Assembly: GCF_003459245.1 (NCBI RefSeq)
Contig: NZ_QRVG01000010.1
Location: 1-64,000 of the forward strand
Direction of reading: 5' to 3'
Length of the DNA: 64,000 nucleotides
Origin: Collinsella sp. AF23-2
Lineage (GTDB): Bacteria; Actinomycetota; Coriobacteriia; Coriobacteriales; Coriobacteriaceae
Under the pieces are notes generated by a model. It searched no databases. It was not told the origin of the DNA and saw nothing but the letters and a program-made list of their open reading frames with translations. The position numbers and the translations under genes were made by a program. This document shows, piece after piece, positions 2,397 to 32,904 of this stretch; position 1 is the first letter of the stretch; each line of letters starts with the position of its first letter.

Positions 2397-2423
2397 CCGT
2401 TCACAGATGATTGCTGACCGTTT
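2397..2423 (+). promoter_or_regulatory. 21-bp-period direct repeat CCGYTY-N15-CCGYTY upstream of lacA
   Basis: CCGTTC at 2397 and CCGTTT at 2418 start exactly 21 bp apart. This is one of seven such pairs in PTS or lac promoter regions of the window. Here it reads opposite to lacABC and lies 173-199 bp upstream of lacA. The binding factor is unknown. Confidence 0.55.
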
Positions 2424-2464
2424 GGGCCGGGCGCGGACGTAGCGACCGTGTGTTCAACAAACAA

Positions 2465-2497
2465 AAGGGCGGCCGAGAACGTGTCTCGGCCGCCCTT
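2465..2497 (-). terminator. intrinsic terminator of the membrane protein gene
   Basis: A 13-bp GC-rich stem (2465-2477 with 2485-2497) is followed on the minus strand by TTTTGTTTG. It lies 35 bp past the stop codon of the gene at 2532-3563. Confidence 0.85.
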
Positions 2498-2531
2498 CGG
2501 CGATATTCCCCGGTATATACAGCTGTTTAAG

Positions 2532-3563
2532 CTACTCGGACTGCCCACCCTTTTTGGCGTGCTTGGACGGAGCACCCAGAAAGCGGCCCGTCAAATAGTT
2601 CGCCGGGCCGGAAATATCGATCCCCAGCAGCACGTGTCCTAGCCATAGGAACGCCACGAGCACCAGCAGCGGGATAACGCACGAAGTCACGATCATCACG
2701 ATGACGCCTTCAATCAGATCGGTCACCTGCCGCACAATCTCATCGGTCATCTGCTTGGCGCCGCTGGTCACCGACGTAACAAGGCTCGATGCTCCATCAG
2801 TCAACTGCTCGAGCACGTTTTTGGACTCCGTGGCCTCGGATTTTTTCTTGTTCGATTTTGAGCTGGTCTCGGCTGACTTGTCCGTGGTGTCGGCCGCGTC
2901 CGCAGCGTCCGCAGCCTTTTGCTCAGCTTGCTCAATACTTACGCGATACGTTTCATCGACCTTCTGCGACACCCATACGCTCGCGGGCACGAGCGCCATG
3001 CCGATCACGGCAACCACCAGCACGCGCGTCGCCACACGGCGCAGGACAGTGCTCGTGCTCCAGCGCCCGTGAATGCCGAGCGACACCGCAAAGAGCACCA
3101 ACGCAAACGGGATTAAGATGCCCAGGCCGACCGACCACAAAATGGTTAGCAGGTATTTCTCTAGGTAGAGCACGGCAAGCACGATACCAAGGTTGCCTGA
3201 AAGCTGCGCGAGCTGCTCGGCAACCGGCGTTCCCGTATCACCCGGCAGCGCGGTAATGCCCGCAGACAGCGCCACGCACGAGGTCGTGAGCGCCAGTACG
3301 TTACCCTTCTTTTGGTCGATGACCTCGATGGTGGAGTCCCAAGTTTTGGTATCGGCGAAATGCGGACGAGCCACAAAGCCCGACAGCAGCGCCAGGACCA
3401 CAAGCGCAACGATAAAGCCAATCTGCAGCTTTTTGTTTGCGCACACGACATCGGACAGGCTGGGCTGCAGCTCGGTTACCGTCGTGTGCTCGGTTATCTG
3501 GACAGGACGCCCATGAGCCATCTCGTGCGCGTCTCTTTTTTGTATTGACCCGTTATCCGGCAT
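2532..3563 (-). CDS. multi-pass membrane protein, unknown function
   Basis: I do not recognise a family for this 343-residue protein. Hydrophobic segments lie at about residues 47-65, 122-168 (probably two helices), 180-198 and 284-315. Between the last two is a charged, Ala/Lys/Ser-rich stretch (about 207-248) and a region with coiled-coil-like heptads, which would form a sizeable non-membrane loop. The start is supported by GAGGAGG 7 bp upstream of the ATG at 3563. It has its own terminator and lies between lacABC and lacF, but nothing in its sequence ties it to sugar transport. Confidence 0.75.
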   Translation of the reverse strand: MPDNGSIQKRDAHEMAHGRPVQITEHTTVTELQPSLSDVVCANKKLQIGFIVALVVLALLSGFVARPHFADTKTWDSTIEVIDQKKGNVLALTTSCVALSAGITALPGDTGTPVAEQLAQLSGNLGIVLAVLYLEKYLLTILWSVGLGILIPFALVLFAVSLGIHGRWSTSTVLRRVATRVLVVAVIGMALVPASVWVSQKVDETYRVSIEQAEQKAADAADAADTTDKSAETSSKSNKKKSEATESKNVLEQLTDGASSLVTSVTSGAKQMTDEIVRQVTDLIEGVIVMIVTSCVIPLLVLVAFLWLGHVLLGIDISGPANYLTGRFLGAPSKHAKKGGQSE

Positions 3564-3656
3564 TTGGATACCTCCTCAGTCCGGCGTTTAATGCGAAAGG
3601 AAGTATACCCACCGAGCAAAAATCGAACGGGAGGACGAACGGAGCGCACCAAGACT

Positions 3657-3697
3657 GTCCCCAATGACTAGTCGTTTAAGAACGTCCCCAATGACTA
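3657..3697. repeat. tandem 14-bp direct repeats
   Basis: GTCCCCAATGACTA occurs at 3657-3670 and again at 3684-3697, 27 bp apart. A variant, GTCCCCAATGGCTA, lies at 46682-46695, next to a large inverted repeat. These look like remnants of a dispersed intergenic repeat. Confidence 0.6.
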
Positions 3698-3729
3698 TCT
3701 CGGGATGAGCTGCGGGGAGGAGGACAGAA

Positions 3730-3760
3730 AAAGCCCTGCTGCGGGTAGCGGCAGGGCTTT
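3730..3760 (-). terminator. intrinsic terminator of lacF
   Basis: A 10-bp stem (3730-3739 with 3751-3760) is followed on the minus strand by a run of five T. It lies about 30 bp past the lacF stop codon. Confidence 0.85.
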
Positions 3761-3788
3761 TGGAAAGGGGCTTGGTTGTGAGGGCTCG

Positions 3789-4127
3789 TTAGGCGAGCTT
3801 GGCCTCGAGCTCGGCAATGCGTTTGTAGGCATCGATGGTAAAGCGGGCCTGCTTCTCCAGAATCATGGTAGTCATGAGGGTATCCTGAGCATGGGCCATG
3901 ATGAAGGTCATCTCCATCTCGCCGCCGCCGGCCTCCTGCGAAAGCAGCTTGGTCTGCGTGTCGTGGGCACCGATGAGTGCATCGCTGGCATCCTTGTGCA
4001 GCTGCTCGGCCTTCTCAAAGTCACCCTCGCGAGCAGCATCGAGCGCTGCGAGCAGATCGGTCTGGGCGTCACCTGCGTATGCGACAATCTCGAATCCAAC
4101 CATCGAGATTTCTTCTTTGGTTGCCAT
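3789..4127 (-). CDS. lacF: PTS lactose/cellobiose-type EIIA component
   Basis: This 112-residue cytoplasmic phosphocarrier of the LacF/CelC family takes phosphate from HPr and passes it to the Cys of a lactose-type EIIB. The phosphorylated His is probably residue 79, in IMAHAQDTLM. It is the only lactose-type EIIA in the window, while three EIICB genes (5704, 12265 and 15644) lack an EIIA domain, so it is likely shared by all three. It has its own terminator. Its upstream region has two DeoR-type boxes and a 21-bp-period repeat, suggesting control independent of the LacI regulators. Confidence 0.93.
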   Translation of the reverse strand: MATKEEISMVGFEIVAYAGDAQTDLLAALDAAREGDFEKAEQLHKDASDALIGAHDTQTKLLSQEAGGGEMEMTFIMAHAQDTLMTTMILEKQARFTIDAYKRIAELEAKLA

Positions 4128-4214
4128 GTTGCGTTCCTTTCACATATGAACCAATGGAGAGCATCGCGTCCGGGCATACGCGCTGCGTTGTGTATGTCAG
4201 AAACAATAACATTC

Positions 4215-4229
4215 AAACAAAAAAGAACA
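4215..4229. promoter_or_regulatory. putative DeoR box, proximal to lacF
   Basis: AAACA-N5-GAACA, 88-102 bp upstream of lacF. The surrounding ATTCAAACA...GAACA closely matches the sequence upstream of the deoR gene at 19914-19932. Confidence 0.45.
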
Positions 4230-4253
4230 GCGCAAAACGTAATTTCGAGCTAT

Positions 4254-4280
4254 GAACGGTCATTTTTCGCCCGTGAACGG
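4254..4280 (-). promoter_or_regulatory. 21-bp-period direct repeat upstream of lacF
   Basis: GAACGG at 4254 and at 4275; on the minus strand these read CCGTTC-N15-CCGTTC, in the same direction as lacF and 127-153 bp upstream of it. Same motif as at 2397, 5439, 10419, 15443, 32655 and 32878. Confidence 0.55.
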
Positions 4281-4295
4281 TTTTTAAACCAATCT

Positions 4296-4310
4296 GAACA
4301 ATATCGAACA
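4296..4310. promoter_or_regulatory. putative DeoR box, distal to lacF
   Basis: GAACA-ATATC-GAACA, a direct repeat with a 10-bp period, between the 21-bp-period repeat and the stop codon of the LacI gene at 4342. Confidence 0.4.
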
Positions 4311-4341
4311 CAATTAGCGGAAACCCAAACAGACCCGCGCT

Positions 4342-5346
4342 CTAGCGCCAATCGCGTACCGTATCGCCCTCGACGAGCACGCCCGGAAACAGCATGTGCT
4401 CCACACCGGGTTCAACGCCCTCGGCGCCGGCAATCTTGTCAACCGCCCACATGCCGACGCGCTTGTTGTCAAAGCGCACCGTGGTCAAGCGACAATCGGG
4501 CACGATATCGCCCAGGCTGTCATCAACACCCACCACGCTCACGTCCTGGGGCACGCACTTCCCGCGCGACTCGAGCCCACGGATGCAGCCATATGCCATG
4601 GCATCGTTGGAGGCATAAATGGCCGTGCAGGTCGGATCATCCGCAAGCGCCTGGCCGGCAGCATATCCACTCTGCGCCGTCCAGTCGCCACGCACGAGCT
4701 GCGGGGGCTCAATGCCATGCGCACGCAATGTCTCACGCCAGCCTTCCTCGCGCCGCATGCCCGAAAGCGAGCGCTCGGGACACGAGATAAAGTGCACAGT
4801 CTTGTGTCCCTGCCCCAGCAAATACTCGACCACCTGGCGCGAACAATCGAACTGGTCGTTATCGACCGTTGAACAGAGCGGGTGCTCCAACATCGTAACG
4901 AGCACCGTCTGCATGCCGGGCAGCGGCTCGAAGGTTCCAAAGTCCGCCGGCATGCGGTTCATAATCACAACCATGCCATCCACCGGCAGTGCGCTCATGC
5001 GCGACGATGCGCTCTCGAGGGTATACGGATGCCCGTCTACTTTAGTGAGGGTGATGGCATAGCCATGTTTGTCGGCCGCTGCGGCAAAGCCCTCCATACG
5101 GTCGAGATTGCCGGTGCCGGTAATGTTGAACATGGCGACGCCGACGGTCTTAAACTTGCCACGGCGCAACGATCGACCGGCAAAATTGGGGCGATACCCC
5201 AGCTCGCGCATGGCGGCACGCACGCGTTCCTTGGTCTCGGGGCGCACGCTGGGCGAATCGTGCACCGTACGCGAGACTGTCTGCTCCGAGACGCCCGCGA
5301 GGCGCGCTACGTCTTTGACGGATACCGATTTTTTAACAGCGGCCAT
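4342..5346 (-). CDS. LacI-family transcriptional regulator, cassette 1
   Basis: This 334-residue protein has an N-terminal LacI helix-turn-helix (VKDVARLAGVSEQTVSRTV, about residues 9-27), the hinge region, and a periplasmic-binding-protein-like effector domain. It is divergent from the EIICB/GH1 pair at 5704-8985 and probably represses it in response to a phosphorylated or free beta-galactoside. Two inverted copies of an 18-bp operator-like sequence lie in the shared 357-bp region (5505-5522 and 5625-5642). Similar regulators precede cassettes 2 and 3. Confidence 0.9.
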   Translation of the reverse strand: MAAVKKSVSVKDVARLAGVSEQTVSRTVHDSPSVRPETKERVRAAMRELGYRPNFAGRSLRRGKFKTVGVAMFNITGTGNLDRMEGFAAAADKHGYAITLTKVDGHPYTLESASSRMSALPVDGMVVIMNRMPADFGTFEPLPGMQTVLVTMLEHPLCSTVDNDQFDCSRQVVEYLLGQGHKTVHFISCPERSLSGMRREEGWRETLRAHGIEPPQLVRGDWTAQSGYAAGQALADDPTCTAIYASNDAMAYGCIRGLESRGKCVPQDVSVVGVDDSLGDIVPDCRLTTVRFDNKRVGMWAVDKIAGAEGVEPGVEHMLFPGVLVEGDTVRDWR

Positions 5347-5438
5347 AGGTCGATCTTTCTATGTCAACGATGCCATTGGTGGCACCTTGCGCAGTCAAAT
5401 GAAACGTCTTCAAGTATATCCAACGCCTCCCCCACCAT

Positions 5439-5465
5439 ACGCTCACCACCCAAAACCTACCGTTC
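5439..5465 (+). promoter_or_regulatory. 21-bp-period direct repeat, cassette 1
   Basis: ACGCTC at 5439 (one mismatch to CCGYTY) and CCGTTC at 5460, both followed by ACC, start 21 bp apart. It reads toward the EIICB gene and lies 239-265 bp upstream of its start. Confidence 0.45.
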
Positions 5466-5504
5466 ACCGACATTTTTGCTTCCCCGAACGGCTTTTGTCT
5501 ACCA

Positions 5505-5522
5505 AATGTTAACGTTGCCATT
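5505..5522. promoter_or_regulatory. putative LacI-type operator, cassette 1 distal
   Basis: AATGTTAACGTTGCCATT, a near-palindrome around ACGT. It recurs in inverted form at 5625-5642 and resembles the perfect palindrome of cassette 3 (15519-15542). Confidence 0.6.
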
Positions 5523-5624
5523 GTGCAAACACAGAGCCACCGGGCGGCTCAAACGTTTACGCGTAAGGAATCGACGGTTCGCAGGCACAGGAACCACCGG
5601 TTCGCGTCTTTTTTTGTGTCGCAA

Positions 5625-5642
5625 AATGGCAACGTCAACATT
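5625..5642. promoter_or_regulatory. putative LacI-type operator, cassette 1 proximal
   Basis: AATGGCAACGTCAACATT, the reverse complement of the 5505-5522 site with one change. It lies 62 bp upstream of the EIICB start codon, and the 120-bp spacing between the two sites would permit looping. Confidence 0.6.
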
Positions 5643-5703
5643 TTGGCAACCGGACGCCAAAAGCTACCATCGTTGCTAACCCACCGACTCTTAGGAGCAT
5701 TGC

Positions 5704-7479
5704 ATGGAGCAACTCATCGCCATCATCGAAAAGGGCCAGCCCTTTTTCAACGCGATCGCCCGCAACAAGTACCTCAAGGCGATCCGCGACGGCTTTATCT
5801 CCGTCATCCCCATCATCATCTTCTCGTCCATCTTCTGCCTGGTAGCCTCGGTCCCCAACATCTGGGGTTTCTACTGGCCCGATGACATCAACAACGCCCT
5901 GTGGAAGTGCTACAACTACTCCATGGGCATCCTGGCCATCGCCTGCGCCGCCACCACGGCCAAGCACTTCGCCGACGCTCAGAACCGCGATCTGCCCAAG
6001 AACAACCAGATCAACTTCATCTCGTGCATGTGCGCGGCCATCATCGGCTTCTTGCTCCTTTCGAGCGACACCATCGCCACGGACGCTGCCAGCGGTTTCA
6101 ACACCACCTACCTTGGTTCCAAGGGCCTGCTGACCGCTTTCATCGCTGCGTTTGTGACCGGCATCATCTACAAGTTCTTCATTAAGCGCAACATCACCGT
6201 CAAGATGCCCGAGCAGGTTCCGCCCAACATCTCGCAGACCTTTAAGGACATCATCCCCTTCTCCGTCTGCATCACCGTCTTTTGGGTTTTTGACATCGTC
6301 TTCCGCGCTGCTTTTGGCTTCTGCTTTGCCCAGGGTGTCATCCAGGTGTTCCAGCCCCTGTTCACCGCTGCCGATGGCTACATCGGCCTCGCTGTGATCT
6401 ACGGCGCCATGAGCCTCTTCTGGTTCGTGGGCGTCCACGGCCCCTCGATCGTCGAGCCCGCCATCGCCGCCGCTCTCGTTGCCAACATGACCGACAACCT
6501 GGCTGCGTTCCAGGCCGGCCAGCACGCTTCCGCTGTCCTGACCCAGGGTGCCCAGTACTTCGTCGTCTGCATGGGCGGCACCGGCGCCACGCTCGTCCTG
6601 GTCTTTATGTTCTGCTTCCTGGCCAAGTCTCAGGAGATGCGCGCCGTCGGTAAGGCCGCCATCGTCCCCGTCTGCTTTGCCGTCAACGAGCCGCTGCTGT
6701 TCGCCGCACCCATCGTGCTCAACCCCGTCTTCTTTGTCCCGTTTGTCTTTGCCCCGATCGCCAACATCTGGATCCTCAAGATCTTTATCGACTTCTTGGG
6801 CATGAACGGCTTTATGTACACCCTGCCTTGGACCGTCCCCGGCCCCATCGGCACCATCATGGGCCTGGGCTTCCAGCCGCTCGCCTTTGTGATGCTCGCC
6901 ATCATCCTGGTCGTCGACTTTGCCCTGTACTATCCGTTCTTCCGTGCCTATGACGCCCAGAAGTGCGCCGAGGAGGCCGAGATCTCCCAGGAGGAGCTCG
7001 CCGCCAAGAACGCCGAGAAAGCCGCCAAGCTCAACGATGCCTTCCAGGGCAAGGCTGACGCCAAGAGCGTTGCCGCCGGCGCTGCTGCCGAGGCCGTGAA
7101 GGCCGACTCCCCCGCCGCTTCCGCAGCACCCGCTGCCGAGACAACGACCGCCAGCGACCTCAACGGCAAGCGCGTGCTCGTGCTCTGCCAGGGCGGCGGA
7201 ACCTCGGGCCTGCTCGCCAACGCGCTGGCCAAGGCCGCCAAGGAGCGCGGCATTAACCTCGAGACCGCTGCCGAGGCCTATGGCAACCACGTGGACATGC
7301 TCCCCGACTTTGACCTGGTCGTCCTGGCCCCGCAGGCCGCAAGCTACCTGGCCGACCTGCAGAAGGACTGTGAGCGCGTGGGCAACAAGTGCGTCGCCTG
7401 CCGTGGCAAGCAGTACATCGAGCTCTCCCAGAACGGCGACAAGTCTCTCGCCTTCGTGAGTGAGCAACTTTCGAAGTAA
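5704..7479 (+). CDS. lacE: PTS lactose-type EIICB permease, cassette 1
   Basis: This 591-residue fused permease imports and phosphorylates a beta-galactoside such as lactose. The N-terminal EIIC domain (about residues 1-420, many membrane segments) has the family GVHGPSIVEP and FAVNEPLLFAAPIVLNP segments. An Ala/Glu-rich linker leads to the EIIB domain, whose VLVLCQGGGTSG motif carries the phosphorylated Cys at residue 495. AGGAG precedes the ATG. It needs an EIIA in trans, presumably LacF at 3789. It is the first gene of its operon, followed by an intercistronic hairpin and a GH1 gene. The substrate could be another beta-galactoside. Confidence 0.92.
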   Translation: MEQLIAIIEKGQPFFNAIARNKYLKAIRDGFISVIPIIIFSSIFCLVASVPNIWGFYWPDDINNALWKCYNYSMGILAIACAATTAKHFADAQNRDLPKNNQINFISCMCAAIIGFLLLSSDTIATDAASGFNTTYLGSKGLLTAFIAAFVTGIIYKFFIKRNITVKMPEQVPPNISQTFKDIIPFSVCITVFWVFDIVFRAAFGFCFAQGVIQVFQPLFTAADGYIGLAVIYGAMSLFWFVGVHGPSIVEPAIAAALVANMTDNLAAFQAGQHASAVLTQGAQYFVVCMGGTGATLVLVFMFCFLAKSQEMRAVGKAAIVPVCFAVNEPLLFAAPIVLNPVFFVPFVFAPIANIWILKIFIDFLGMNGFMYTLPWTVPGPIGTIMGLGFQPLAFVMLAIILVVDFALYYPFFRAYDAQKCAEEAEISQEELAAKNAEKAAKLNDAFQGKADAKSVAAGAAAEAVKADSPAASAAPAAETTTASDLNGKRVLVLCQGGGTSGLLANALAKAAKERGINLETAAEAYGNHVDMLPDFDLVVLAPQAASYLADLQKDCERVGNKCVACRGKQYIELSQNGDKSLAFVSEQLSK

Positions 7480-9266: not shown

Positions 9267-10295
9267 CTAACCCCGTATGTCCCTAACAGTCGAGCGTTCG
9301 ACCAGCGTACTCGGCACATGAATCGCCTCGATAGACGAGCTCTCTCCAATCGCCGCCTCAAACGCAAGCTTACCGACACCGCGCAAATCAAATCGCAGCG
9401 TCGTCAGCCGATTGTGAGGAACAAGTCCCTCGAGTGCGTCGTCGATACCAACCACGCTCACGTCGTCGGGCACGGACAGGCCCGCGTTCTCGAGCGCGGC
9501 GATAACGCCCAGCGCCATCTGGTCATTTGCCGCAAGCACGGCAGTCGGCGCCTGCGACCCGCCGGCAAGCACCTCGGCCGCAATCCGCTCGCCCATGGCG
9601 TACCCACTGTCCGCACTCCAATCGCCACGCAGCATCGGAGCGGCATCGACATGAGCACGACCCAGCGTATCGCGCCAACCGGCCTCACGAAAACGCGAGG
9701 AAATCGAGTTTTCCGGACCCGCCACAAACCGCATATTCGAGTGACCATGTTCCAGCAGATAATTGGTCAACAGCTCGCACGAACCATACTGGTCGGAGTC
9801 GATCGTCGTGCAGCGCGGATGCGCATACATGGACAGGATGACCGTTCGCACTCCCGGCTGGGGAACAAACTCCTCAAAATCGGGAGCCATGCGGTTCATG
9901 TTGAGAATCATGCCGTCGACGGGTCGCTCGACCATGCGGCGCGAGGCATCGGCAAGTGCATAGGGCTTGTCGCCGCCCATCTCGATCATAGTGACGGCAA
10001 AATCGTGCTCGCGCGCCGCTTGCATGATACCCTCGAGCGTCGCCAGGTTACCGACACGTGTGATGTTGTACATGCACAGGCCAATAGAACGATACGACCC
10101 GCCGCGCAACGCCGCTCCAGCAAAATTGGGGCGAAAGCCCAGCTCTTCCATGGCGGCCAGCACACGCTTGCGCGTCTTTTCCGTCACGTTGGGCATACCG
10201 TTGACCACGCGAGACACAGTCTGGCGGCTCACGCCAGCGAGCGCCGCAACCTCTGCCGCGCTCGCCGAACGACCATTCCTTGTCTGCTGATCCAT
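9267..10295 (-). CDS. LacI-family transcriptional regulator, cassette 2
   Basis: This 342-residue LacI-type regulator has its helix-turn-helix (AAEVAALAGVSRQTVSRVV) near the N-terminus, followed by the effector-binding domain. It diverges from the GH1/EIICB pair at 10640-14025 and probably represses it. Start choice is uncertain: I used the ATG at 10295 (MDQQTRN), but an in-frame GTG 15 bp upstream has a better-placed GGAAGCAGG, and the open frame reaches 10352. Three operator-like sites lie at 10355-10372, 10487-10504 and 10509-10526; the first partly covers the start region of the regulator itself, suggesting autoregulation. Confidence 0.88.
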   Translation of the reverse strand: MDQQTRNGRSASAAEVAALAGVSRQTVSRVVNGMPNVTEKTRKRVLAAMEELGFRPNFAGAALRGGSYRSIGLCMYNITRVGNLATLEGIMQAAREHDFAVTMIEMGGDKPYALADASRRMVERPVDGMILNMNRMAPDFEEFVPQPGVRTVILSMYAHPRCTTIDSDQYGSCELLTNYLLEHGHSNMRFVAGPENSISSRFREAGWRDTLGRAHVDAAPMLRGDWSADSGYAMGERIAAEVLAGGSQAPTAVLAANDQMALGVIAALENAGLSVPDDVSVVGIDDALEGLVPHNRLTTLRFDLRGVGKLAFEAAIGESSSIEAIHVPSTLVERSTVRDIRG

Positions 10296-10354
10296 GCCTT
10301 CCACGCTAACCTGCTTCCCAACTATTCCCCGCGCCCATGGCGCATCGTACATAC

Positions 10355-10372: not shown

Positions 10373-10418
10373 ATACCCGAGCCATATACCACAACATGAA
10401 AACTTCTGTCAATCAAAA

Positions 10419-10445
10419 CCGCTTACCGAACAAATACAACCGTTC
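10419..10445 (+). promoter_or_regulatory. 21-bp-period direct repeat, cassette 2
   Basis: CCGCTT at 10419 and CCGTTC at 10440 start 21 bp apart, reading toward GH1 and lying 195-221 bp upstream of its start. Confidence 0.55.
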
Positions 10446-10639: not shown

Positions 10640-12088
10640 ATGCATATGTCTTTGCTAAACCGCGTACAGCAGCTGCCGAAGGGCTTTGTTTGGGGCGCCG
10701 CAACCGCCGCGTACCAAACGGAAGGTTCCACGAAGGTGGCAGGCAAGGGTAAGACCATGTGGGACGATTACCTTGTCGCCCAGGGTCGCTTTTTGCCCGA
10801 CCCGGCCAGTGATTTCTACAACCGCTACGAGGAGGATATCCGCCTTTCTGCCGAGCATGGACTCAACGCCATTCGTGTGTCCATCGCCTGGACCCGCATC
10901 TTCCCCAACGGCGACGATGCCGAACCCCTCGCCGAGGGCGTTAAGCACTACCACGAGCTGTTCGCCTGCTGCAAAAAGTATGGCGTCGAGCCCTATGTGT
11001 CCCTGCATCACTTTGACTCCCCCGCCGCCCTGTTCAACCAGGGCGACTGGCTCAACCGCAAGACCGTCGACGCCTATGTGCGCTATGCCGAGTTCTGCTT
11101 CCGCGAGTTCCGCGAGGTCAAGAATTGGTTCACCATCAACGAGCTCATCAGCCTCTCGCACTCCCAATACATCCAAGGCAACTTCCCGCCCAACCATCAC
11201 TTTGATGTGACGAGCGGCATCCAGAGCCAGCACAACGAGCTCGTTGCCCACGCCCGCGCCGTCAACCTGTATAAGGATCTTGACGAGACCGAGCACCTGG
11301 GCGGACGCATTGGCATGGTCAACGTCCTGACGCCGGCATATCCTGCCACCGACTCGCCCGCCGACCAGCACGCCGCCGACCTGTACAACGCCTTCTACAC
11401 CGACTTCATCATGGACGGCGCCTTCCTGGGTCACTACTCCGCGCGCACCCTCTCACTCATCAACGAGATTCTGCGTGCCAACAACGCCACACTTACGGTT
11501 GAGGACAGCGACATGGAGGAGCTCGCCAAGGCGGCGCCCCGCAACGATATGTTCGGCCTCAACTACTATCAGTCGGCGTTTATCGCCGCCTACGATGGCG
11601 AGTCAACCAACAGCTTTAACGGCACCGGAGACAAGGGCACCTCGTGCTTTAAGTTTAAGGGCGTCGGGCAGCAGGTCGATATGCCGGGTATCCCCACCAC
11701 CGACTGGGATTGGCTCATCTACCCGCAAGGCCTCTACGACACGCTCAAGCACATCAGCGCCACCTATCCCAACCTCCCCGTCATCTATATCACCGAAAAC
11801 GGCCTGGGCCACAAGGACCCCGAGCCCGACGCAAACGGCATCGTCGCCGATCCCGAGCGCATCGACTTTGTCGACCAGCACATGGAGAAGGTGCTCCAGG
11901 CGCGCGCCGAGGGCGTCGACGTCCAGGGCTACTTTATCTGGAGCCTGCAGGACCAGTTCTCGTGGGCCAATGGCTATAACAAGCGCTACGGCCTGTTCTA
12001 CATCGACTTCGACACGCAAAAACGCTACATCAAGCAGTCGGCACTCTGGTACAAGGAGCTCGCCGACACTATGGCGGACGCGCAGTAG
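10640..12088 (+). CDS. 6-phospho-beta-galactosidase (GH1), cassette 2
   Basis: This 482-residue GH1 enzyme probably hydrolyses 6-phospho-beta-galactosides. Catalytic Glu168 (FTINEL) and Glu386 (ITENGLG) are present, as is the phosphate-binding motif FSWANGYNKRYG with Ser441, Lys448 and Tyr450. It diverges more from the GH1 enzymes of cassettes 1 and 3 than they do from each other, including a different segment after the acid/base residue (ELISLSHSQYIQGNF), so its preferred aglycone probably differs. Unlike cassettes 1 and 3, GH1 precedes EIICB here. The start is 10640 or the ATG at 10646. Confidence 0.9.
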   Translation: MHMSLLNRVQQLPKGFVWGAATAAYQTEGSTKVAGKGKTMWDDYLVAQGRFLPDPASDFYNRYEEDIRLSAEHGLNAIRVSIAWTRIFPNGDDAEPLAEGVKHYHELFACCKKYGVEPYVSLHHFDSPAALFNQGDWLNRKTVDAYVRYAEFCFREFREVKNWFTINELISLSHSQYIQGNFPPNHHFDVTSGIQSQHNELVAHARAVNLYKDLDETEHLGGRIGMVNVLTPAYPATDSPADQHAADLYNAFYTDFIMDGAFLGHYSARTLSLINEILRANNATLTVEDSDMEELAKAAPRNDMFGLNYYQSAFIAAYDGESTNSFNGTGDKGTSCFKFKGVGQQVDMPGIPTTDWDWLIYPQGLYDTLKHISATYPNLPVIYITENGLGHKDPEPDANGIVADPERIDFVDQHMEKVLQARAEGVDVQGYFIWSLQDQFSWANGYNKRYGLFYIDFDTQKRYIKQSALWYKELADTMADAQ

Positions 12089-14357: not shown

Positions 14358-15359
14358 CTACGCCCGCAAGTCCTTTACGCTGGAACGCTCGACCAACACG
14401 CCCGAGACGAGCGTACGGCTTCTGGAGCTCGGAGTTTCTATGCCCGCAACGACCTCGTTAAGCGCACGGACGCCCAGCTCGCGGTGGCGGAACTTCACCG
14501 ACGTCAGAATCGAGTTGGGAATCGTCTTGTAGAGCTCATCGTCGAAGCCGATCACGGACACGTCGTCGGGCACACTGAGCCCTTTGTCACGTAAAGCCAT
14601 CATCACGCCGTTTGCCATGCAGTCGTTAGCCGCGAGGACCGCCGTGCAATCGGGTTTATCGGCAAGCACAAGGCCCGCAGCATAGCCACTATCCGCATTC
14701 CAATCGCCTTGCAGAGGCTCGGGCGGCTCAATGCCACGCGTCTCGAGTGCCGCACGCCAACCTTTCATACGGCACTGGCTCGACAGCGACTCTTTCTTAC
14801 CAGAGACGAAGTACACATTCTTGTGTCCGCGATTCAAGAAGTACTCGCATGCCATGCGCGCGCCGCCCTCTTGGTCGTCACTGACGGTAGAGCAGGTAGG
14901 ATGTTCCATCGACGTGATAATCACCGTCTTGAGGTCTTTCGGCGCCTCAAAGGTATCAAAGTCATCGACCATCTGGCGCAGGTTGAAAATCATGCCGTCG
15001 ACGGGAAGCTGCGACATCCTACGTGCCGCTTCGGCAAGGGTCATCTTCTCCCCCGCCCGCTTTTTAATCATCGTGAGCGCAAAGCCTCGCTCTGCGGCGG
15101 CATCGGCGATACCGTCAATCATGTCCACGTTGCCGCCCGACAAGTGGAACAGCACCACGCCGATGCACCCGTAACGGCCCAACTTGAGTGAACGCGCGGC
15201 AAAGTTCGCCCGGAACTCAAGCGCTTCCATGGCAGCATGGACCCTATCGCGCGTCGACTCACGCACGCTATCGGGCTCGTTGATCACGCGCGACACCGTC
15301 TTGAGAGAAACGCCCGCGGCAACTGCCACATCGTTCATTGAGACATTTTTCTTGTCCAT
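14358..15359 (-). CDS. LacI-family transcriptional regulator, cassette 3
   Basis: This 333-residue LacI-type regulator has its helix-turn-helix (MNDVAVAAGVSLKTVSRVI) at about residues 8-26, followed by the effector domain. It is divergent from the EIICB/GH1 pair at 15644-18920. I used the ATG at 15359 (MDKKNVS); a GTG 9 bp upstream has better GGAG spacing, and the open frame extends to 15437. The presumed operator is a 24-bp perfect palindrome (15519-15542) plus an adjacent imperfect copy (15498-15516), both between the regulator and the operon it faces. Confidence 0.88.
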   Translation of the reverse strand: MDKKNVSMNDVAVAAGVSLKTVSRVINEPDSVRESTRDRVHAAMEALEFRANFAARSLKLGRYGCIGVVLFHLSGGNVDMIDGIADAAAERGFALTMIKKRAGEKMTLAEAARRMSQLPVDGMIFNLRQMVDDFDTFEAPKDLKTVIITSMEHPTCSTVSDDQEGGARMACEYFLNRGHKNVYFVSGKKESLSSQCRMKGWRAALETRGIEPPEPLQGDWNADSGYAAGLVLADKPDCTAVLAANDCMANGVMMALRDKGLSVPDDVSVIGFDDELYKTIPNSILTSVKFRHRELGVRALNEVVAGIETPSSRSRTLVSGVLVERSSVKDLRA

Positions 15360-15442
15360 CGTTGCCACTACTTCTCCAGTCGGTTTTGCATCGCTTGTTT
15401 TTTGCGTTCTAGCATACACTACCTGCCCGACTGACAAATCAA

Positions 15443-15469
15443 CCGTTTACCGGACAATATCGACCGCTC
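15443..15469 (+). promoter_or_regulatory. 21-bp-period direct repeat, cassette 3
   Basis: CCGTTT at 15443 and CCGCTC at 15464, both followed by AC, start 21 bp apart. It reads toward the EIICB gene, 175-201 bp upstream of its start. Confidence 0.55.
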
Positions 15470-15518: not shown

Positions 15519-15542
15519 CGAAATGACAACGTTGTCATTTCG
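15519..15542. promoter_or_regulatory. 24-bp perfect palindrome, probable LacI operator of cassette 3
   Basis: The half-site is CGAAATGACAAC followed by its exact complement, centred on ACGT as LacI-family operators usually are. It lies 102 bp upstream of the EIICB start codon. Confidence 0.7.
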
Positions 15543-15643: not shown

Positions 15644-17422
15644 ATGGACGCCATCGTAAAGATGCTCGAAAAGCATCAACCGTTCTTCGAGAAGATCTCG
15701 AGAAACATCTACCTCCAGGCCATCAAAGACGGATTCCTTGGGTGCATGCCCATCGTCCTTACCTCTTCGATCTTTCTGCTGATCGCCACCCTTCCCGGCG
15801 TAGTTGGAATCACGTTGCCCCAGCCGCTCATCGACTGGTGCAACAAGCTGTACAACTTCACCATGGGCGTCATGGGCATCATGGTTGCCGGCACCACCGC
15901 CAAGAACTTCACGGCTTCCATGAACCGTCGCATGCCCGCCGGCAAGGTGCTCAACGACGGCTCCACCATGGTTGCCGCCCAGTGCAGCATGCTGCTGCTC
16001 GCTGTTACGCAGTTCACCACCAAGTTCAACGGCTCCGAGCTTTCGGTCTTCGATTGCACCAGCATGGGTACACGCGGTCTGTTCTCGGCCTATATCGCAG
16101 CGTTCATTACCGTTTGGGTTTATAAGTTCTGCGTCTCGCGCGATCTGACCATTAAGCTGCCCAAGGAGGTTCCGGGCGCCATCGCTCAGAACTTCCGCGA
16201 CATCATCCCCTTCGGTGGCGCTGTCATCATCTGCGGCATCATCGATGTCGTCGTGCGCAACCTCATGGGCGTTCCGTTCTCCGAGCTGCTTATCAAACTG
16301 CTCTCCCCGCTCTTCACTGCGGCAGAGACCTACCCCGGACTCATCCTTATTCAGGCGGCCACCGCGTTCTTCTGGTTCATCGGCGTCCACGGCCCTTCGA
16401 TTGTCCAGCCGGGCATCGACCCCATCCGTCTTGCCAACCAGGCCGAGAACCTGCAGGTTCTGCTGGCCGGTGGCCACCCCGCCCACTCCCTCACCTTTAA
16501 CATGTCGCTCGTGGGTGAGTTCGGCGGCACCGGCGCCACGTTCATCGTGCCGCTTCTGCTGATTCTCTTTATGAAGTCCAAACAGCTCAAAGCCGTCGGC
16601 AAGGCCTCGATTGTTCCTGTTGCCTTCGCCGTCAACGAACCGCTGCTCTTTGGCGCGCCGATGATCCTTAACCCCTACATGCTCATCCCCTTTGTTGCCG
16701 CCGGCTGCGTCAACGTGAGTGTTGCCAAGTTCTTTATCGACAACGTGGGCATGAACGGCTTCTCCTTCGTGGTGCCTTGGGCTACCCCTGCCCCCATCGG
16801 CATCTTCATCACTACAAACTTCCAGCTTATCGCCCTGGTATTTGTCGCGATCATCATCTTGCTGGACGCCATCATCTACCTGCCGTTCTTGAAGGCATAC
16901 GATAAGCTGCTCTGCGACCAGGAAGCCGAGCGCGCCGCCGAGCTGGGTCTCGAGTCCGATGGTACTGCCACCATCGCCGCCAGCACCTCTGCGCCCGCTG
17001 TCGAGCAGGCCACCGCTGCCGTCGAGCCGACCGCCGCTGCCGCTGACAGCAAGCCTGTCGCCGATCAGCCCGAGCCCGCTGCCGATGCATCCGCTAAGAA
17101 GGATGTCGACGGTCTGAAGGTCCTCGTCCTGTGCGCCGGCGCCGGCACCTCTGCCATGCTTGCCAACGCCATCAAGGAAGGTGCCGCGCAGACCGGAGAG
17201 AACATCGCTTCCTCCGCAGGCGCCTATGGCCAGCACACTGCCATCATGGATCAGTACGACGTTATCGTGCTTGCCCCGCAGGTCCGTAGCTACTACAACG
17301 ACATGAAGGCCGACACCGATCGCCTGGGCATTAAGCTGCTCGCCCCGCGCGGTAAGGAATATATCGACCTTACTCGCGACCCCGCTGGCGCCATCAAGTG
17401 GCTCCGCGAGAACCTCGACTAG
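15644..17422 (+). CDS. PTS lactose-type EIICB permease, cassette 3
   Basis: This 592-residue EIICB fusion has a multi-pass EIIC domain with GVHGPSIVQP and FAVNEPLLFGAPMILNP. A long Ala/Pro/Glu-rich linker (about residues 430-485) leads to the EIIB domain with phosphocysteine Cys497 in VLVLCAGAGTSA. AAGGAG precedes the ATG. It resembles the cassette 2 permease over its full length. It is first in an EIICB-GH1 operon controlled from the divergent region at 15360-15643 and relies on an EIIA encoded elsewhere, probably lacF. Confidence 0.92.
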   Translation: MDAIVKMLEKHQPFFEKISRNIYLQAIKDGFLGCMPIVLTSSIFLLIATLPGVVGITLPQPLIDWCNKLYNFTMGVMGIMVAGTTAKNFTASMNRRMPAGKVLNDGSTMVAAQCSMLLLAVTQFTTKFNGSELSVFDCTSMGTRGLFSAYIAAFITVWVYKFCVSRDLTIKLPKEVPGAIAQNFRDIIPFGGAVIICGIIDVVVRNLMGVPFSELLIKLLSPLFTAAETYPGLILIQAATAFFWFIGVHGPSIVQPGIDPIRLANQAENLQVLLAGGHPAHSLTFNMSLVGEFGGTGATFIVPLLLILFMKSKQLKAVGKASIVPVAFAVNEPLLFGAPMILNPYMLIPFVAAGCVNVSVAKFFIDNVGMNGFSFVVPWATPAPIGIFITTNFQLIALVFVAIIILLDAIIYLPFLKAYDKLLCDQEAERAAELGLESDGTATIAASTSAPAVEQATAAVEPTAAAADSKPVADQPEPAADASAKKDVDGLKVLVLCAGAGTSAMLANAIKEGAAQTGENIASSAGAYGQHTAIMDQYDVIVLAPQVRSYYNDMKADTDRLGIKLLAPRGKEYIDLTRDPAGAIKWLRENLD

Positions 17423-28288: not shown

Positions 28289-28327
28289 TTAAATGCAAAG
28301 AATCACCATATGGAAACGATGCGGACA

Positions 28328-29144: not shown

Positions 29145-29178
29145 AAAAGCCGCGCGCTCTTTCGAGCACGCGGCTTTT
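29145..29178 (-). terminator. terminator of the mannose-type PTS operon
   Basis: A 15-bp stem with one G-U pair (29145-29159 with 29164-29178) is followed on the minus strand by TGTTTTCTTG. Confidence 0.85.
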
Positions 29179-29244
29179 AACATACACATGGCTTAAGGGG
29201 TCGGGGTGTGAGCCGCGTAGGGACACACCCCTCAAGCTAGAGCC

Positions 29245-30327
29245 TTACCAGATGCTCGGCCAGAGACCAAGCGGGCCAGCGCCCAGGATGCCCAGGACGA
29301 AGAGCAGCAGAATGCCCTTGGTCGGGGTCCAGCTGTGCTTAGCGAACATGTAGTAAAGCAGCAGCGTAAGCATAAGCGGGACGAGCTTCGGGACGATGGT
29401 GTTGAGGGTGTCGGCAACGGAGAAGTTGACCGGATCCTCGGTGACGGTGCCGTAGGTAACGGACTCCATGCCGTTGCCCAGATCGGTGACGCCGCACTCG
29501 ACAGCGTTGCCGTCGGCATCGGAAGCGGTGAGGGCGTTGCCGTCCTCATCGGTCATGGCGATGGTACCGGCCTCAGCGGTCTCGGTATCGATGCCCTCCA
29601 TACCGGTGAAGTTCTCGGCCTCCTTCTCGGAGACGATCACGGTAGTAGCGGAGAGGCCACGGGTGGTGCCGTTGGGGATCTGGAGGTTGATCTGGGTGCC
29701 ACCCATGGTGACGACCAGGCAACCGACGACGAAGACGCCCATGATGGAAGCGGCACGCGTGAAGGCCTGCATGTTGGCAGTCAGAGCGTCAATAGCGCTG
29801 GTGCCAAGCTTGTAGGACCAGTTCATGAGCCAGAAGCGCAGAGCGAACTGGACGACGTTGAAGATCACCAGGAAGATGATCGGCGCAGCGGCGTTGCCGT
29901 TGATGGCCATGTTGGAGGTGATGCCGGCCGTGATAGGCACGAGCGTCAGCCAGAACAGGGCGTCACCGATACCACCGAGCGGGCCCATTGCGGCGACGCG
30001 GACGGCGCGGATCGTGGGGATGTCAACCTTGTTCTGCTCGAGCGAAAGCACGATACCCATAACAAAGGTGACGAGGAACGGGTGGGTGTTGAAGAACTCC
30101 AGGTTGTGGCTCATGGAAGCCGCGAGGTCGTTCTTGTTGGTGTGGATCTTCTCCAGACCGGGGATGATGGAGTAGAGCCAGCCAGCGGCCTGCATACGCT
30201 CGTAGTTGAACGAGGCCTGCAGGAAGCAGGAGCGCCAAGCCATCTTGTTGAGGGTCTTCTGGTCGAGCTGCGGAGCAGGAGTGAGATCCTCGTAGTGCTC
30301 CGGGATCACATACTCATTAGATGCCAT
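29245..30327 (-). CDS. agaD: PTS mannose-family EIID component, with a large insertion
   Basis: This 360-residue membrane component of the EIIC-EIID translocator shows family segments WRSCFLQASFNYERMQ, AAMGPLGGIGDALFW and a C-terminal hydrophobic hairpin. It is longer than the usual 270-300 residues: about 80 hydrophilic, Asp/Glu/Gly/Thr-rich residues (about 218-300) are inserted between the transmembrane part and the final helices. The ATG at 30327 follows GGAGGTGA and overlaps the end of EIIC by 11 bp, implying translational coupling. Confidence 0.9.
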   Translation of the reverse strand: MASNEYVIPEHYEDLTPAPQLDQKTLNKMAWRSCFLQASFNYERMQAAGWLYSIIPGLEKIHTNKNDLAASMSHNLEFFNTHPFLVTFVMGIVLSLEQNKVDIPTIRAVRVAAMGPLGGIGDALFWLTLVPITAGITSNMAINGNAAAPIIFLVIFNVVQFALRFWLMNWSYKLGTSAIDALTANMQAFTRAASIMGVFVVGCLVVTMGGTQINLQIPNGTTRGLSATTVIVSEKEAENFTGMEGIDTETAEAGTIAMTDEDGNALTASDADGNAVECGVTDLGNGMESVTYGTVTEDPVNFSVADTLNTIVPKLVPLMLTLLLYYMFAKHSWTPTKGILLLFVLGILGAGPLGLWPSIW

Positions 30328-31117
30328 CTTCGAAGTCACCTCCGTCAGAAACAGCTGCACCCTTCAGCTCGGTCTGCTGCTGGAAGTCCCAGAAGGCGAT
30401 GCCGAAGCCGATGAGAGCGAGGATGAGCAGAGCAGGGGTTGCCAGAGAATCGTTGGCAACGGTGATGAGCGCGAGGCCAAAGCCCATGAGGAAGAAGCCC
30501 CACATATCGCGGTTCATCATAACCTTGAGCAGGACGGCGAAGCCGACGAAGCGCATCATGCCGCCTGCAGCGGAGAGACCGGTCTGCAGCCAAGTCGGGA
30601 TGGCGGAAGCGATGGTCTGACCGATGGTAGCGCCAGCGATGAAGAACAGGGTGACGACGACAGCGAAGATCAGGCCGAGCAGAGCCATGGCGAAGTAGTT
30701 CAGACGCTCGATACCCTTGGTGTCGGCGTTGTGAGCCATGTTGTCCGCGGAGGACATGAGCGGCGACATAAGCGTGAAGACCAGGGTAACGCCGAGCTGA
30801 CCAAGCAGAGCGAACGGAATGGCAAGGCCGACTGCCGCGTTGGGCTCGAGGCCCGTAGCGATAGCGAGAATGGCTGCCATGATGCCGCCGATGACGGCGT
30901 TAGGCGGCTGAGCACCTCCGATCGGCATGTTGCCGATCGTCATGAGCTGATAAGTACCACCCACGAGAAGACCGGTGTTGAGGTCGCCAAGGATAAGACC
31001 AATGACGGCGCCGGTGACGATGGGCTGATAGAGAGACTCGAGGAAGTTAAACTGGTCGATTGCCGCGACGAACGTGACGATGAAGACCAGAGCGACCTGG
31101 AAGATCGTGTATTCCAT
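30317..31117 (-). CDS. agaC: PTS mannose-family EIIC component
   Basis: This 266-residue multi-pass membrane protein of the AgaC/ManY family forms the sugar channel together with EIID. It shows the N-terminal AAIDQFNFLESLYQPIVTG and LVGGTYQLMTIGNMPIGGAQPPN segments typical of the family. AAAGGAGGAGC precedes the ATG. It is the fourth gene of the operon EIIA-yajC-EIIB-EIIC-EIID, 90 bp after EIIB. Confidence 0.92.
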   Translation of the reverse strand: MEYTIFQVALVFIVTFVAAIDQFNFLESLYQPIVTGAVIGLILGDLNTGLLVGGTYQLMTIGNMPIGGAQPPNAVIGGIMAAILAIATGLEPNAAVGLAIPFALLGQLGVTLVFTLMSPLMSSADNMAHNADTKGIERLNYFAMALLGLIFAVVVTLFFIAGATIGQTIASAIPTWLQTGLSAAGGMMRFVGFAVLLKVMMNRDMWGFFLMGFGLALITVANDSLATPALLILALIGFGIAFWDFQQQTELKGAAVSDGGDFEDGI

Positions 31118-31207
31118 CTTGCTCCTCCTTTCAAAATGTATGTACGCACTTTGGATTTCACGTACAGAATGTCAGGGTTTCACTCCTGACAACGTGGATC
31201 ACGAAGA

Positions 31208-31690
31208 CTACGAGAAGAGCTTGCTCGTGTCCTCAACAGGCGTGCTCGGAACGCGCCTGATCTCCAACTCCACCCCCAATTCCTGCAGCTCTTTAAACGC
31301 AGCGACATCCTCGTCGTTAACTGCGACGGAGGTGGCGACTTGGCGCTTTCCTTCCGACATGTGCATGTTGCCGATGTTTACCTTCTTTATAGGCACACCG
31401 CCCTTGACGAGCGTAAGCACGTCTTCCGGTGTTTCGGCCACGATGAAGATCTTCTGGCGCGGGCTCGCCTTGCCAATGACGTCGATGGTCTTCTGCAGAG
31501 AGAAGAAACGCGTAGCGACGCCGGCGGGAGCGGCCATCTTCATGAGGTTCTGGCGCATGGTGTTGGTCGCCACGTCGTCGTTGGCGACGAGGATGAGGTT
31601 GGAGCCCAGGGTGGAGTTCCACTGGGTGGCAACCTGACCATGAACCAGTCGGTTATCGATGCGGGTAAGAAGAATGTTGGGTTCTGCCAT
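31208..31690 (-). CDS. agaB: PTS mannose-family EIIB component
   Basis: This 160-residue cytoplasmic EIIB has the active motif TRIDNRLVHGQVATQW with phosphorylated His17. It receives phosphate from the EIIA at 32008 and passes it to the sugar entering through EIIC/EIID. It is a paralogue of the His-to-Tyr protein at 21467-21949. Context (nagA, agaS) points to GalNAc, galactosamine or a mucin-derived disaccharide as substrate. Confidence 0.92.
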   Translation of the reverse strand: MAEPNILLTRIDNRLVHGQVATQWNSTLGSNLILVANDDVATNTMRQNLMKMAAPAGVATRFFSLQKTIDVIGKASPRQKIFIVAETPEDVLTLVKGGVPIKKVNIGNMHMSEGKRQVATSVAVNDEDVAAFKELQELGVELEIRRVPSTPVEDTSKLFS

Positions 31691-31726
31691 GTTGATCAGC
31701 TTCCTTTCGTTATTTGCTGACGACAG

Positions 31727-32008
31727 TTACTTGATCTCCTGAATCGCGTAACGCGAAACATCTACGACGGCACCGGATCGGACTTTGATCTGGACCTTTT
31801 CGCCTTCGATGCCCTTGACGGTTCCGTAGATACCGCCGGCGAAAAGAACCTCCTGACCCGGCTTGAGCTCGGTGTGCAGCTCCTTGAAGTACTTCTGCTT
31901 CTTCTTCATGTTGATTTGCGACCAGATGGTGTAAATCAAGCCCATGACGACAAGCAGGCCTAAAAGAGCGACCGAGGAGCTCAGGACGCTGGCTCCGAAA
32001 TCGGCCAT
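31727..32008 (-). CDS. YajC-like small membrane protein in the PTS operon
   Basis: This 93-residue protein has one N-terminal membrane helix (about residues 10-28), a basic stretch (MKKKQKYFKELHTELKPG) and a small beta domain (VLFAGGIYGTVKGIEGEKV), all as in YajC of the Sec accessory complex. It overlaps the end of the EIIA gene by one base and precedes EIIB, so it is made with the PTS. YajC-like genes are known inside mannose-type PTS operons of some Firmicutes. Its role there is unknown; it may aid EIIC/EIID assembly. Confidence 0.83.
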   Translation of the reverse strand: MADFGASVLSSSVALLGLLVVMGLIYTIWSQINMKKKQKYFKELHTELKPGQEVLFAGGIYGTVKGIEGEKVQIKVRSGAVVDVSRYAIQEIK

Positions 32009-32451
32009 TAGATGCCGTCCTCGTCACCGAAGATATCCTCTTCCTCGGCACCAGCGACGGAGGCAACCGTCTGGGCGGTGATGCCCGTCTGGCCAACGGT
32101 CACGGCCTGCTCGCCAAGCTCGGCGAGCGTAGCGTTGCCGCGGAGGAACAGAAGCTCAATAACCATGGGAAGGTTCGTGCCAGTCAGAATCTCGACGTTG
32201 TCGACATCCTGGGCAATCATCATTGCCTGGTTGAACGGGGTACCACCAAGCAGGTCGGTAAAGACGAGCACGCCATCGCACTCCTCGCGCATGGCGGTGA
32301 TAGCGGCGCGGAGATCCTCACCGTAGGAAGCAGCCTGGTCGCCCTCGAAAGGAACGACGGTAAAAGCGGGCTGATCACCGGCGACCATAGCGATAGCGCT
32401 TGCGAGGCCGGGTGCGAACTGTCCATGACCGGTAAGAATAAAGCCAACCAT
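32008..32451 (-). CDS. agaF: PTS mannose-family EIIA component
   Basis: This 147-residue cytoplasmic EIIA starts GFILTGHGQFAPG, with His9 as the HPr-dependent phosphorylation site, and has the FTDLLGGTPFNQA segment. The acidic C-terminus (AEEEDIFGDEDGI) replaces a linker to EIIB, as in stand-alone EIIA proteins. It is the first gene of the operon; GAAGGG precedes the ATG. The long upstream region carries a GntR-type site and two 21-bp-period repeats. Confidence 0.92.
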   Translation of the reverse strand: MVGFILTGHGQFAPGLASAIAMVAGDQPAFTVVPFEGDQAASYGEDLRAAITAMREECDGVLVFTDLLGGTPFNQAMMIAQDVDNVEILTGTNLPMVIELLFLRGNATLAELGEQAVTVGQTGITAQTVASVAGAEEEDIFGDEDGI

Positions 32452-32566
32452 TCAAATTTCCCTTCCGAAGGTGTGTACGATCTGAGTCCGATGTTTTCGG
32501 AAGCCAGCGGGCGGACGCCCTTAAAGCTTCTTGGAAAGCGTTCTTTGAAGACCAGTGGTCTCTCAA

Positions 32567-32579
32567 CTGGTAGTAACCA
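32567..32579. promoter_or_regulatory. putative GntR/UTRA operator upstream of the PTS operon
   Basis: CTGGTAGTAACCA, identical to 13 of the 14 bases of the agaS site. An additional ACCAGTGGTC lies just before it at 32551-32560. Confidence 0.6.
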
Positions 32580-32654
32580 CGTGACGTGTTGTTGTCACTA
32601 TATCATCACAGAAGAGGTCGCTTTCGCTGATTCACGCAATAAAACGTTTTTGCA

Positions 32655-32681
32655 CCGCTCACGGCGATAAATCGACCGTTT
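32655..32681 (+). promoter_or_regulatory. 21-bp-period direct repeat, PTS operon site 1
   Basis: CCGCTC at 32655 and CCGTTT at 32676, each followed by AC, start 21 bp apart. It reads away from the PTS operon and lies 204-230 bp upstream of it. Confidence 0.55.
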
Positions 32682-32877
32682 ACCGCTCGTTAACACTTCT
32701 ACCTGCGGTTTTGAAACCGTTTCGAAATACTTTGACGAAAGATCGGAACCTTTTCTGTGTCTAAACAACGCAGGGTGGCCAAAAAAGGCATGTAGAAAAA
32801 ATGCAGGTCATTGTGAAGATTTGTGAATTGGTCTTTTTGACTTAATACCAGTTAGAACCAGTTTAGAAATTATCGGT

Positions 32878-32904
32878 GAACGGTAGTTTTCGACCGCTCA
32901 GCGG
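32878..32904 (-). promoter_or_regulatory. 21-bp-period direct repeat, PTS operon site 2
   Basis: On the minus strand CCGCTG (32899-32904, one mismatch) and CCGTTC (32878-32883) start 21 bp apart. It reads toward the PTS operon, about 430 bp upstream. Confidence 0.45.

Follow-up and report, generated by a model that had tools for sequence, protein, structure and literature searches.

The window analyzed here is a stretch of 64,000 nucleotides (positions 1 to 64,000 of contig NZ_QRVG01000010.1) from Collinsella sp. AF23-2, a member of a common human gut genus. Among its genes are lacA, encoding a LacA/RpiB-type isomerase, lacF, encoding the EIIA-lac component of a sugar phosphotransferase system (PTS), three cassettes in which EIIBC and GH1 genes are accompanied by LacI genes, and, together with a GntR gene, a mannose-type EIIA-B-C-D operon. 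All of these are preceded by a direct repeat of two half-sites starting 21 bp apart, read here as the predicted operator of a LytTR-type response regulator (RR A) encoded outside the window.

Exact CCGYTY-N15-CCGYTY pairs begin at 2397 (+), 4254 (-), 10419 (+), 15443 (+), and 32655 (+), i.e., five where 0.30 are expected, and none of 100 dinucleotide shuffles of the window gave five or more. The pairs at 5439 (+) and 32878 (-) carry one mismatch each. The seven pairs listed in a preliminary description of this DNA are thus all present with their 21-bp period, although its list lacked an overlapping partner at 32893-32920 (+) and a match at 42921 (-). A matrix trained on 25 intergenic sites from five other genomes, used with a cut-off of 19, retrieves precisely these nine positions, with scores of 19.0-32.9 for the seven pairs. 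The next position scores 12.0, and the maximum in the reversed window is 13.0.

The full motif reads ACCGYTYRY-N12-ACCGYTY (strict pattern), two direct half-sites with a period of 21. Called gene starts lie 126-238 bp from the sites, and 426 bp from the extra copy before the mannose-type operon. An exact strict site stands upstream of lacA (1796-2224, minus strand) at 2396..2423 (+; score 26.6), opposite in orientation to the gene and 171 bp from its start, and another upstream of lacF (3789-4127, minus strand) at 4254..4281 (-; score 32.2), in the same orientation as the gene and at a distance of 126 bp. In the first cassette, a degenerate operator at 5438..5465 (+), located between a LacI gene (4342-5346, -) and the EIIBC gene (5704-7479, +) 238 bp away, has two mismatches to the strict pattern and, with a score of 19.0, is the weakest of the nine. 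Exact strict sites are found in the second cassette at 10418..10445 (+; score 31.2), between a LacI gene (9267-10352, -) and a GH1 gene (10640-12088, +), and in the third at 15442..15469 (+; score 32.9), between a LacI gene (14358-15437, -) and an EIIBC gene (15644-17422, +) that starts 174 bp from the site.

The mannose-type operon is entirely on the minus strand (EIIA 32008-32451, EIIB 31208-31690, EIIC 30317-31117, EIID 29245-30327). An exact strict site at 32654..32681 (+; score 30.5) lies 202 bp upstream of it and a second operator at 32878..32905 (-; two mismatches; score 22.2) 426 bp upstream, the latter being overlapped on the opposite strand by an operator-like site at 32893..32920 (+; two mismatches; score 22.1). 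As the members of this overlapping pair (32878-32920, 426-441 bp before the operon) share a half-site stretch, full occupancy of both at once would be impossible. Two sites likewise precede the orthologous EIIA of genome G001, with 210 and 448 bp between them and the match to the EIIA domain. The remaining position, 42921..42948 (-; one mismatch; score 25.2), is contained in a comF-like gene (42192-42998, -). Since the frame of this gene is uninterrupted and also conserved in G001, the match is doubtful and possibly a coding coincidence.

Definition of the Motif

The CCGYTY hexamer first proposed as the half-site turned out to be the right core of a longer one, ACCGYTYRY. The spacer is A/T-rich at positions 15-18, and position 11 is a G in 46 of 57 sites. 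When ACCGYTY pairs were counted over 31 spacings (periods 9 to 39) in seven related genomes, 79 of the 149 pairs had a period of 21, against nine pairs each for the next best periods, 20 and 34, and a mean of 2.3 for the other spacings. This dominance of the 21-bp spacing in relatives, together with the promoter location of the sites, supports the initial proposal that one regulator occupies one DNA face through half-sites two helical turns apart. Periods 20 and 22 show a slight excess of pairs (nine and six), perhaps corresponding to functional spacing variants.

For genome counts, the reversed pattern served as control. The loose pattern CCGYTY-N15-CCGYTY was too noisy for this use, with 35 matches in G001 against 64 reversed controls; among 30 of these matches that were examined, 23 were intergenic and seven inside genes. 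An intermediate pattern, ACCGYTY-N14-ACCGYTY, gave 109 matches against 35 in family f1 (the family of the nearest genome), but 18 against 12 in f5, 14 against 22 in f2, and 46 against 49 in the others. The RY positions were added after inspection of sites, and the final strict pattern was then tested in five divergent f1 genomes and in a set of 79 genomes. In the five genomes, it returned 26 sites, 25 of them intergenic, and no control. All 13 strict sites of G001 are intergenic, as are 57 of the 58 distinct strict sites in the loci examined (the window, the 30 loose G001 loci, 26 loci of the five divergent f1 genomes, and 14 f5 loci). With up to three mismatches allowed, the window contains 23 matches for 17.6 expected, i.e., not above chance, so that close matches alone count.

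A chance repeat, or one copied along with duplicated cassettes, could be suspected from the paralogous look of the three cassettes of the window. The shuffled windows and the 26 sites against no control in five other genomes contradict this explanation, as do the flanks, which differ from site to site, and the unrelated target genes; it deserves next to no credence.

Distribution among Coriobacteriia

The 79 genomes of the class were scanned with the strict pattern and its reversal. Families f1, f5, and f2 presumably correspond to Coriobacteriaceae, Atopobiaceae, and Eggerthellaceae, respectively. In f1, 90 sites were found against seven controls (13 genomes), and in f5, 18 against one (eight genomes). 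No enrichment was seen in f2 (eight against seven, 12 genomes) or in the remaining 46 genomes (22 against 17). The f11 sites (loci L067-L071), read for their context, showed no apparent common target type. Two f2 genomes have a single strict site each (L105:1679-1706 and L106:1677-1704), located upstream of a peptidase-like gene and, behind it, a gene for a YfcC-like carrier, as judged by eye; these two sites possibly represent a minimal regulon.

Target Genes and Link to PTS Genes

In G001, where loose and strict sites were pooled, the facing genes related to sugars or PTSs include EIIBC-glc, EIIA-glc, EIIA-lac (lacF), EIIA-man, a LacI/EIIC divergon, a PRD antiterminator, and lacA, the last two being assigned by position or by eye where unscanned. 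Transport is represented by an ABC solute-binding protein, an MFS_2 symporter, a xanthine/uracil-type permease, a DcuC-family carrier, and an amino-acid permease. The others are a SIS/RpiR-type regulator, GH88, arginine deiminase, an iron alcohol dehydrogenase, a HAD hydrolase, an OmpR-type regulator, a phosphoribosyltransferase-like protein, and two proteins without family. Three of the 23 intergenic loose matches have no facing gene within 520 bp.

The five divergent f1 genomes, in which some facing genes are without family or unscanned, display PTS targets (four EIIA-man, EIIA-lac, EIIA-2, and two PRD/CAT antiterminators) and carbohydrate targets (GH2, GH95, and glucuronate isomerase). A weak binding-protein match, a YheO-like regulator, a DeoR regulator, a flavoprotein oxidoreductase, a cyclase, and a PALP enzyme also face sites, as does, by eye, a polyphosphate kinase with arginine deiminase opposite. 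In f5, the targets read by eye from sequence starts are GH1, GntR genes, ABC transport, EIIBC, a fructose-type PTS, and peptide-binding proteins. The preliminary description had noticed no repeat in front of non-PTS genes. This has to be abandoned since lacA itself is no PTS gene and, genome-wide, many sites precede ABC, arginine deiminase, carrier, permease, and glycosidase genes. A regulon restricted to PTS genes is ruled out by these and the other non-PTS targets, amino-acid and purine uptake included.

The association with PTS genes is nonetheless strong. In ten f1 genomes, matches to EIIA-man and EIIA-lac number 39 and 19, respectively, and 30 and 19 of them were examined. Of the 30 EIIA-man genes, 14 have a site scoring at least 19 in the 450 bp upstream (16 within 1.5 kb upstream, none within 1.5 kb downstream), as do three of the 19 EIIA-lac genes (one downstream). 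Only one of 138 background genes has an upstream site (Fisher p 2e-11 against EIIA-man), this background being the genes of 13 f1 loci around LytTR genes, with orthologous genes repeated. Without the sites of the matrix training set (three EIIA-man and one EIIA-lac), the fractions are 11/27 and 2/18. None of the six best-scoring EIIA-man genes (open frames of 331-373 amino acids) has a site of at least 19, one having a site of 17.0. A repeat at every PTS promoter, as claimed earlier, is therefore not found, and the idea of a global PTS regulator keeps its link to PTSs while losing its specificity. Indeed, the enrichment at EIIA-man, the many PTS genes without site, and the non-PTS targets point to a regulon that is rich in PTS genes but general.

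Beyond the mannose-type operon, positions 33138-33820 of the window hold a small membrane-protein-like frame without Pfam match, then the apparent start of a helix-turn-helix gene.

Promoter Architecture

The EIIBC of the third cassette is 96-99% identical (best segment) to 18 Collinsella loci among 29 found. Upstream of the orthologous genes, each of the 18 Collinsella loci has a best site of 24.9-32.9. The best score is 17.6 in three Tractidigestivibacter/Atopobium-type loci, which is under the cut-off of 19, and 27.2 in one more locus from Coriobacteriia; it does not exceed 6.7 in seven Staphylococcus, Mammaliicoccus, and Lacticaseibacillus loci. In several Collinsella loci, the second half-site is ACCACTC, matching E. 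coli. A palindrome, AAATGACAACGTTGTCATTT (15521..15540), located downstream of the 15442 site, is kept alongside it in orthologous promoters and is also conserved in the Tractidigestivibacter and Atopobium-type orthologues. In a nine-locus alignment, this palindrome (AATGACAACGTTGTCATT) is the other strongly kept block between the site and the ribosome-binding region. As the LacI gene adjoins, it is probably the operator of the adjacent LacI protein. The combination of site and downstream palindrome suggests two inputs per promoter, a global one via RR A and a local substrate signal. The early view that the regulator is distinct from the local LacI, DeoR, and GntR proteins is upheld.

Hexamers resembling a -10 element were counted for the 41 sites that have a gene in the same orientation no more than 400 bp away, in bins that were set after the site positions were seen. 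Between 50 and 80 bp from the site start, 20 occur against 10.4 in shuffles (standard deviation 3.3; four of 500 shuffles as high). The other bins hold two at 28-50 bp (7.4 in shuffles), nine at 80-110 bp (10.7), and seven at 110-145 bp (12.1). Enrichment of -35/-10 pairs was not detected at the same 41 sites. Hexamers at 50-80 bp with no -35 signal would fit an activator binding just upstream of promoters with a weak -35.

A repressor or a dual-acting regulator would instead account for the wide variation of upstream positions and for the 11 of 32 sites with one facing gene that are in reverse orientation (in all, 21 sites have a same-orientation gene only, 11 an opposite one only, 20 both, and five none). 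Nevertheless, the -10-like element lies downstream of the sites, and the position expected of a repressor is filled by a separate palindrome at the 15442 promoter and its orthologues, making this alternative unlikely, albeit the most serious of those considered here.

Candidate Regulators

According to a review on AlgR, LytTR operators consist of imperfect direct repeats, each 8-13 bp long, with a spacing of about 12 bp (PMC4064291). ACCGYTYRY-N12-ACCGYTY has this layout, its two halves of about 9 bp being direct repeats with a gap of about 12 bp. The BtsR (YehT) probe printed in a study of YpdB contains ACCGCTTAC-N12-ACCACTCAG (PMC4847170, Table 1), a stretch found upstream of btsT in the E. 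coli record, in the same orientation and about 136 bp before the gene. On this probe, the Collinsella-trained matrix finds the exact BtsR repeat with a score of 19.0 (p about 2.4e-5 within the probe, p values being taken from the analytic score distribution); as scores of at least 19 are expected 1.7 times by chance per E. coli genome, the match is telling within the probe only. On the YpdB (yhjX) probe, no match is obtained (score -10.0). The agreement extends to the half-site, the 12-bp spacing, and the A/T-rich spacer, which supports the assignment of the motif as a predicted operator of LytTR type, specifically BtsR-like.

The motif by itself names no protein, and AraC-type activators also use direct repeats about two turns apart. 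A binder outside the LytTR family, such as one of these, is however quite improbable in view of the threefold agreement with LytTR operators and of a site standing before the gene of a LytTR protein in two genomes (G045 and G051, see below).

LytTR proteins, surveyed in the 79 genomes, are present in 78 of them. The most likely binder appears to be RR A, a conserved BtsR-like response regulator of 238 amino acids with a receiver (PF00072, 89.8 bits for a cut-off of 30.2) and a C-terminal LytTR domain (PF04397, 79.9 bits for a cut-off of 22.6). Only receiver-domain relatives were among the 60 matches listed for RR A against solved structures; its LytTR part alone gave weak matches (3d6w, E 0.0016; AgrA 3bs1, E 0.04). 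Neighboring genes encode a glycosyltransferase-like protein, a GAF/His_kinase kinase (Pfam), and, by eye, a YfcE-like protein. At E 0.001, this LytS-family kinase (kinase A) has Pfam matches to His_kinase, HATPase_c, and GAF_3 and a weak one to SpoVT_C; it has one hydrophobic stretch at residues 9-69 (membrane hairpin), and neither Pfam nor hydrophobicity revealed a BtsS-type multi-transmembrane LYT receptor domain. In the 13 f1 genomes, RR A has an identity of 86-100%, and in the eight f5 genomes of 66-69%; it is the sole LytTR protein of G001, G084, and G096, all of which bear sites. Its mere presence fails as a marker of the regulon because the protein is class-wide.

G045 and G051 (90% and 77% complete) belong to the same f13 genus and have just one strict site each. 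It precedes the RR A match on the same strand, by 134 bp in G045 and 153 bp in G051 (L102:3279-3306 and L103:2536-2563), and leads into a promoter-like stretch common to both genomes; this arrangement suggests autoregulation. The chance of a site before RR A is about 1e-4 per site, or of the order of 0.003 over 30 sites outside f1 and f5, for a placement noticed after looking over about 30 sites and within a single genus. Neither a LytTR match nor a site is found in G033 (86% complete), the third genome of f13.

Eight of the 13 f1 genomes have a second BtsR-like protein, which shares 44-52% identity with RR A. RR B is encoded alongside genes for an amino-acid permease, an amidohydrolase, and a kinase of its own. 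The site could belong to it, or both regulators could read overlapping sets, as RR B is BtsR-like too (167.6 bits with the NCBIfam BtsR model, also short of the cut-off of 246) and a variant site heads the permease operon holding it in G008 and G012. Yet the five f1 genomes without a second BtsR-like protein keep 41 sites against three controls (49 against four in the other eight), and G001, which lacks RR B, still has sites, the variant one included. RR B as sole regulator is ruled out by such genomes, and a share for it in the regulon is doubtful, if marginally easier to defend than a binder outside the LytTR family. At loci L056 and L051 of G001, neither RR B nor its kinase is found, while the permease and amidohydrolase genes are kept with the variant site in front.

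A Proposed Global Activator of Nutrient Uptake

The proposed role of RR A is that of a two-component global activator of nutrient uptake, to which local LacI, DeoR, and GntR regulators add specificity; a probability of about 0.7 is given to this reading. The pair would be the operator of RR A, its two ACCGYTYRY half-sites being presented on one DNA face 21 bp apart. Once the LytS-family kinase encoded beside it is active, phosphorylated RR A would bind the pair and, sitting just upstream of a promoter with a recognizable -10 and little -35, recruit RNA polymerase. Local LacI, DeoR, GntR, or PRD regulators would then restrict firing to the operon whose substrate is present. Computed results are the motif with its spacing, promoter location, and conservation, the classes of target, and the agreement with the BtsR operator; RR A as the binder, activation rather than repression, and control by phosphorylation are presumed.

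Several observations weigh against this proposal, beyond the chance expectation attached to the btsT match, the late choice of -10 bins with its missing -35 signal, and the circumstances under which the G045/G051 placement was noticed. RR A misses the NCBIfam BtsR equivalog cut-off (173.4 bits for 246). It is present in 77 of the 79 genomes (E 1e-20), whereas the motif is enriched in f1 and f5 only, and no strict site was seen before it in the f1 loci holding its operon. The orientation bias of the sites is also weak (21 against 11, p 0.055).

In the open-licence literature, no paper was found on how Collinsella coordinates nutrient uptake, nor a description of a broad nutrient regulon of LytTR type in Coriobacteriia. 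The operator class is already known; its use for many nutrient genes in Coriobacteriia seems not to have been reported in that literature. If the proposal is right, Collinsella gains a master nutrient switch whose operators, target operons, and candidate regulator can be named; a BtsR-type operator would be deployed over a genome-wide regulon, and sensing by GAF-type LytS kinases would become a directly testable question.

Comparison with Known Systems

AlgR of Pseudomonas aeruginosa, a multi-target regulator of the LytTR family, recognizes the core CCGTTCGTC, to be compared with CCGTTCRY here, but its sites are described as not necessarily paired 12 bp apart and its targets as alginate, pili, and virulence functions (PMC4064291).

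The closest parallel is the BtsS/BtsR (YehU/YehT) system at btsT (yjiY). The ACCGCTTAC-N12-ACCACTC direct repeat has the same period of 21, an A/T-rich spacer, and the same orientation; BtsR is the best NCBIfam model for RR A, and a LytS-family kinase is encoded alongside. Unlike BtsR, RR A remains under the equivalog cut-off. Moreover, BtsS reportedly reads pyruvate in E. coli through a receptor with seven transmembrane segments, whereas kinase A shows no multi-transmembrane LYT receptor domain, and the signal is perhaps cytosolic and perceived via GAF. Many operons carry the site here, whereas yjiY is given as the sole target of BtsR in E. coli (PMC5431176).

With regard to function, the system resembles the global catabolite regulators. 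In the sugar-fermenting Coriobacteriia (Collinsella and Atopobium-like), a single BtsR-like system with a likely cytosolic GAF input may well have taken over the job done elsewhere by CRP or CcpA, as a global activator of PTS, ABC, amino-acid, and purine uptake that acts through a 21-bp direct repeat combined with local repressors; this takeover is held somewhat less firmly than the activator role itself. As with CRP and CcpA, one global site per nutrient operon would be combined with a local repressor operator near the promoter, but the protein family is different, the site is a direct repeat and not a palindrome, and the signal presumably comes from a two-component system.

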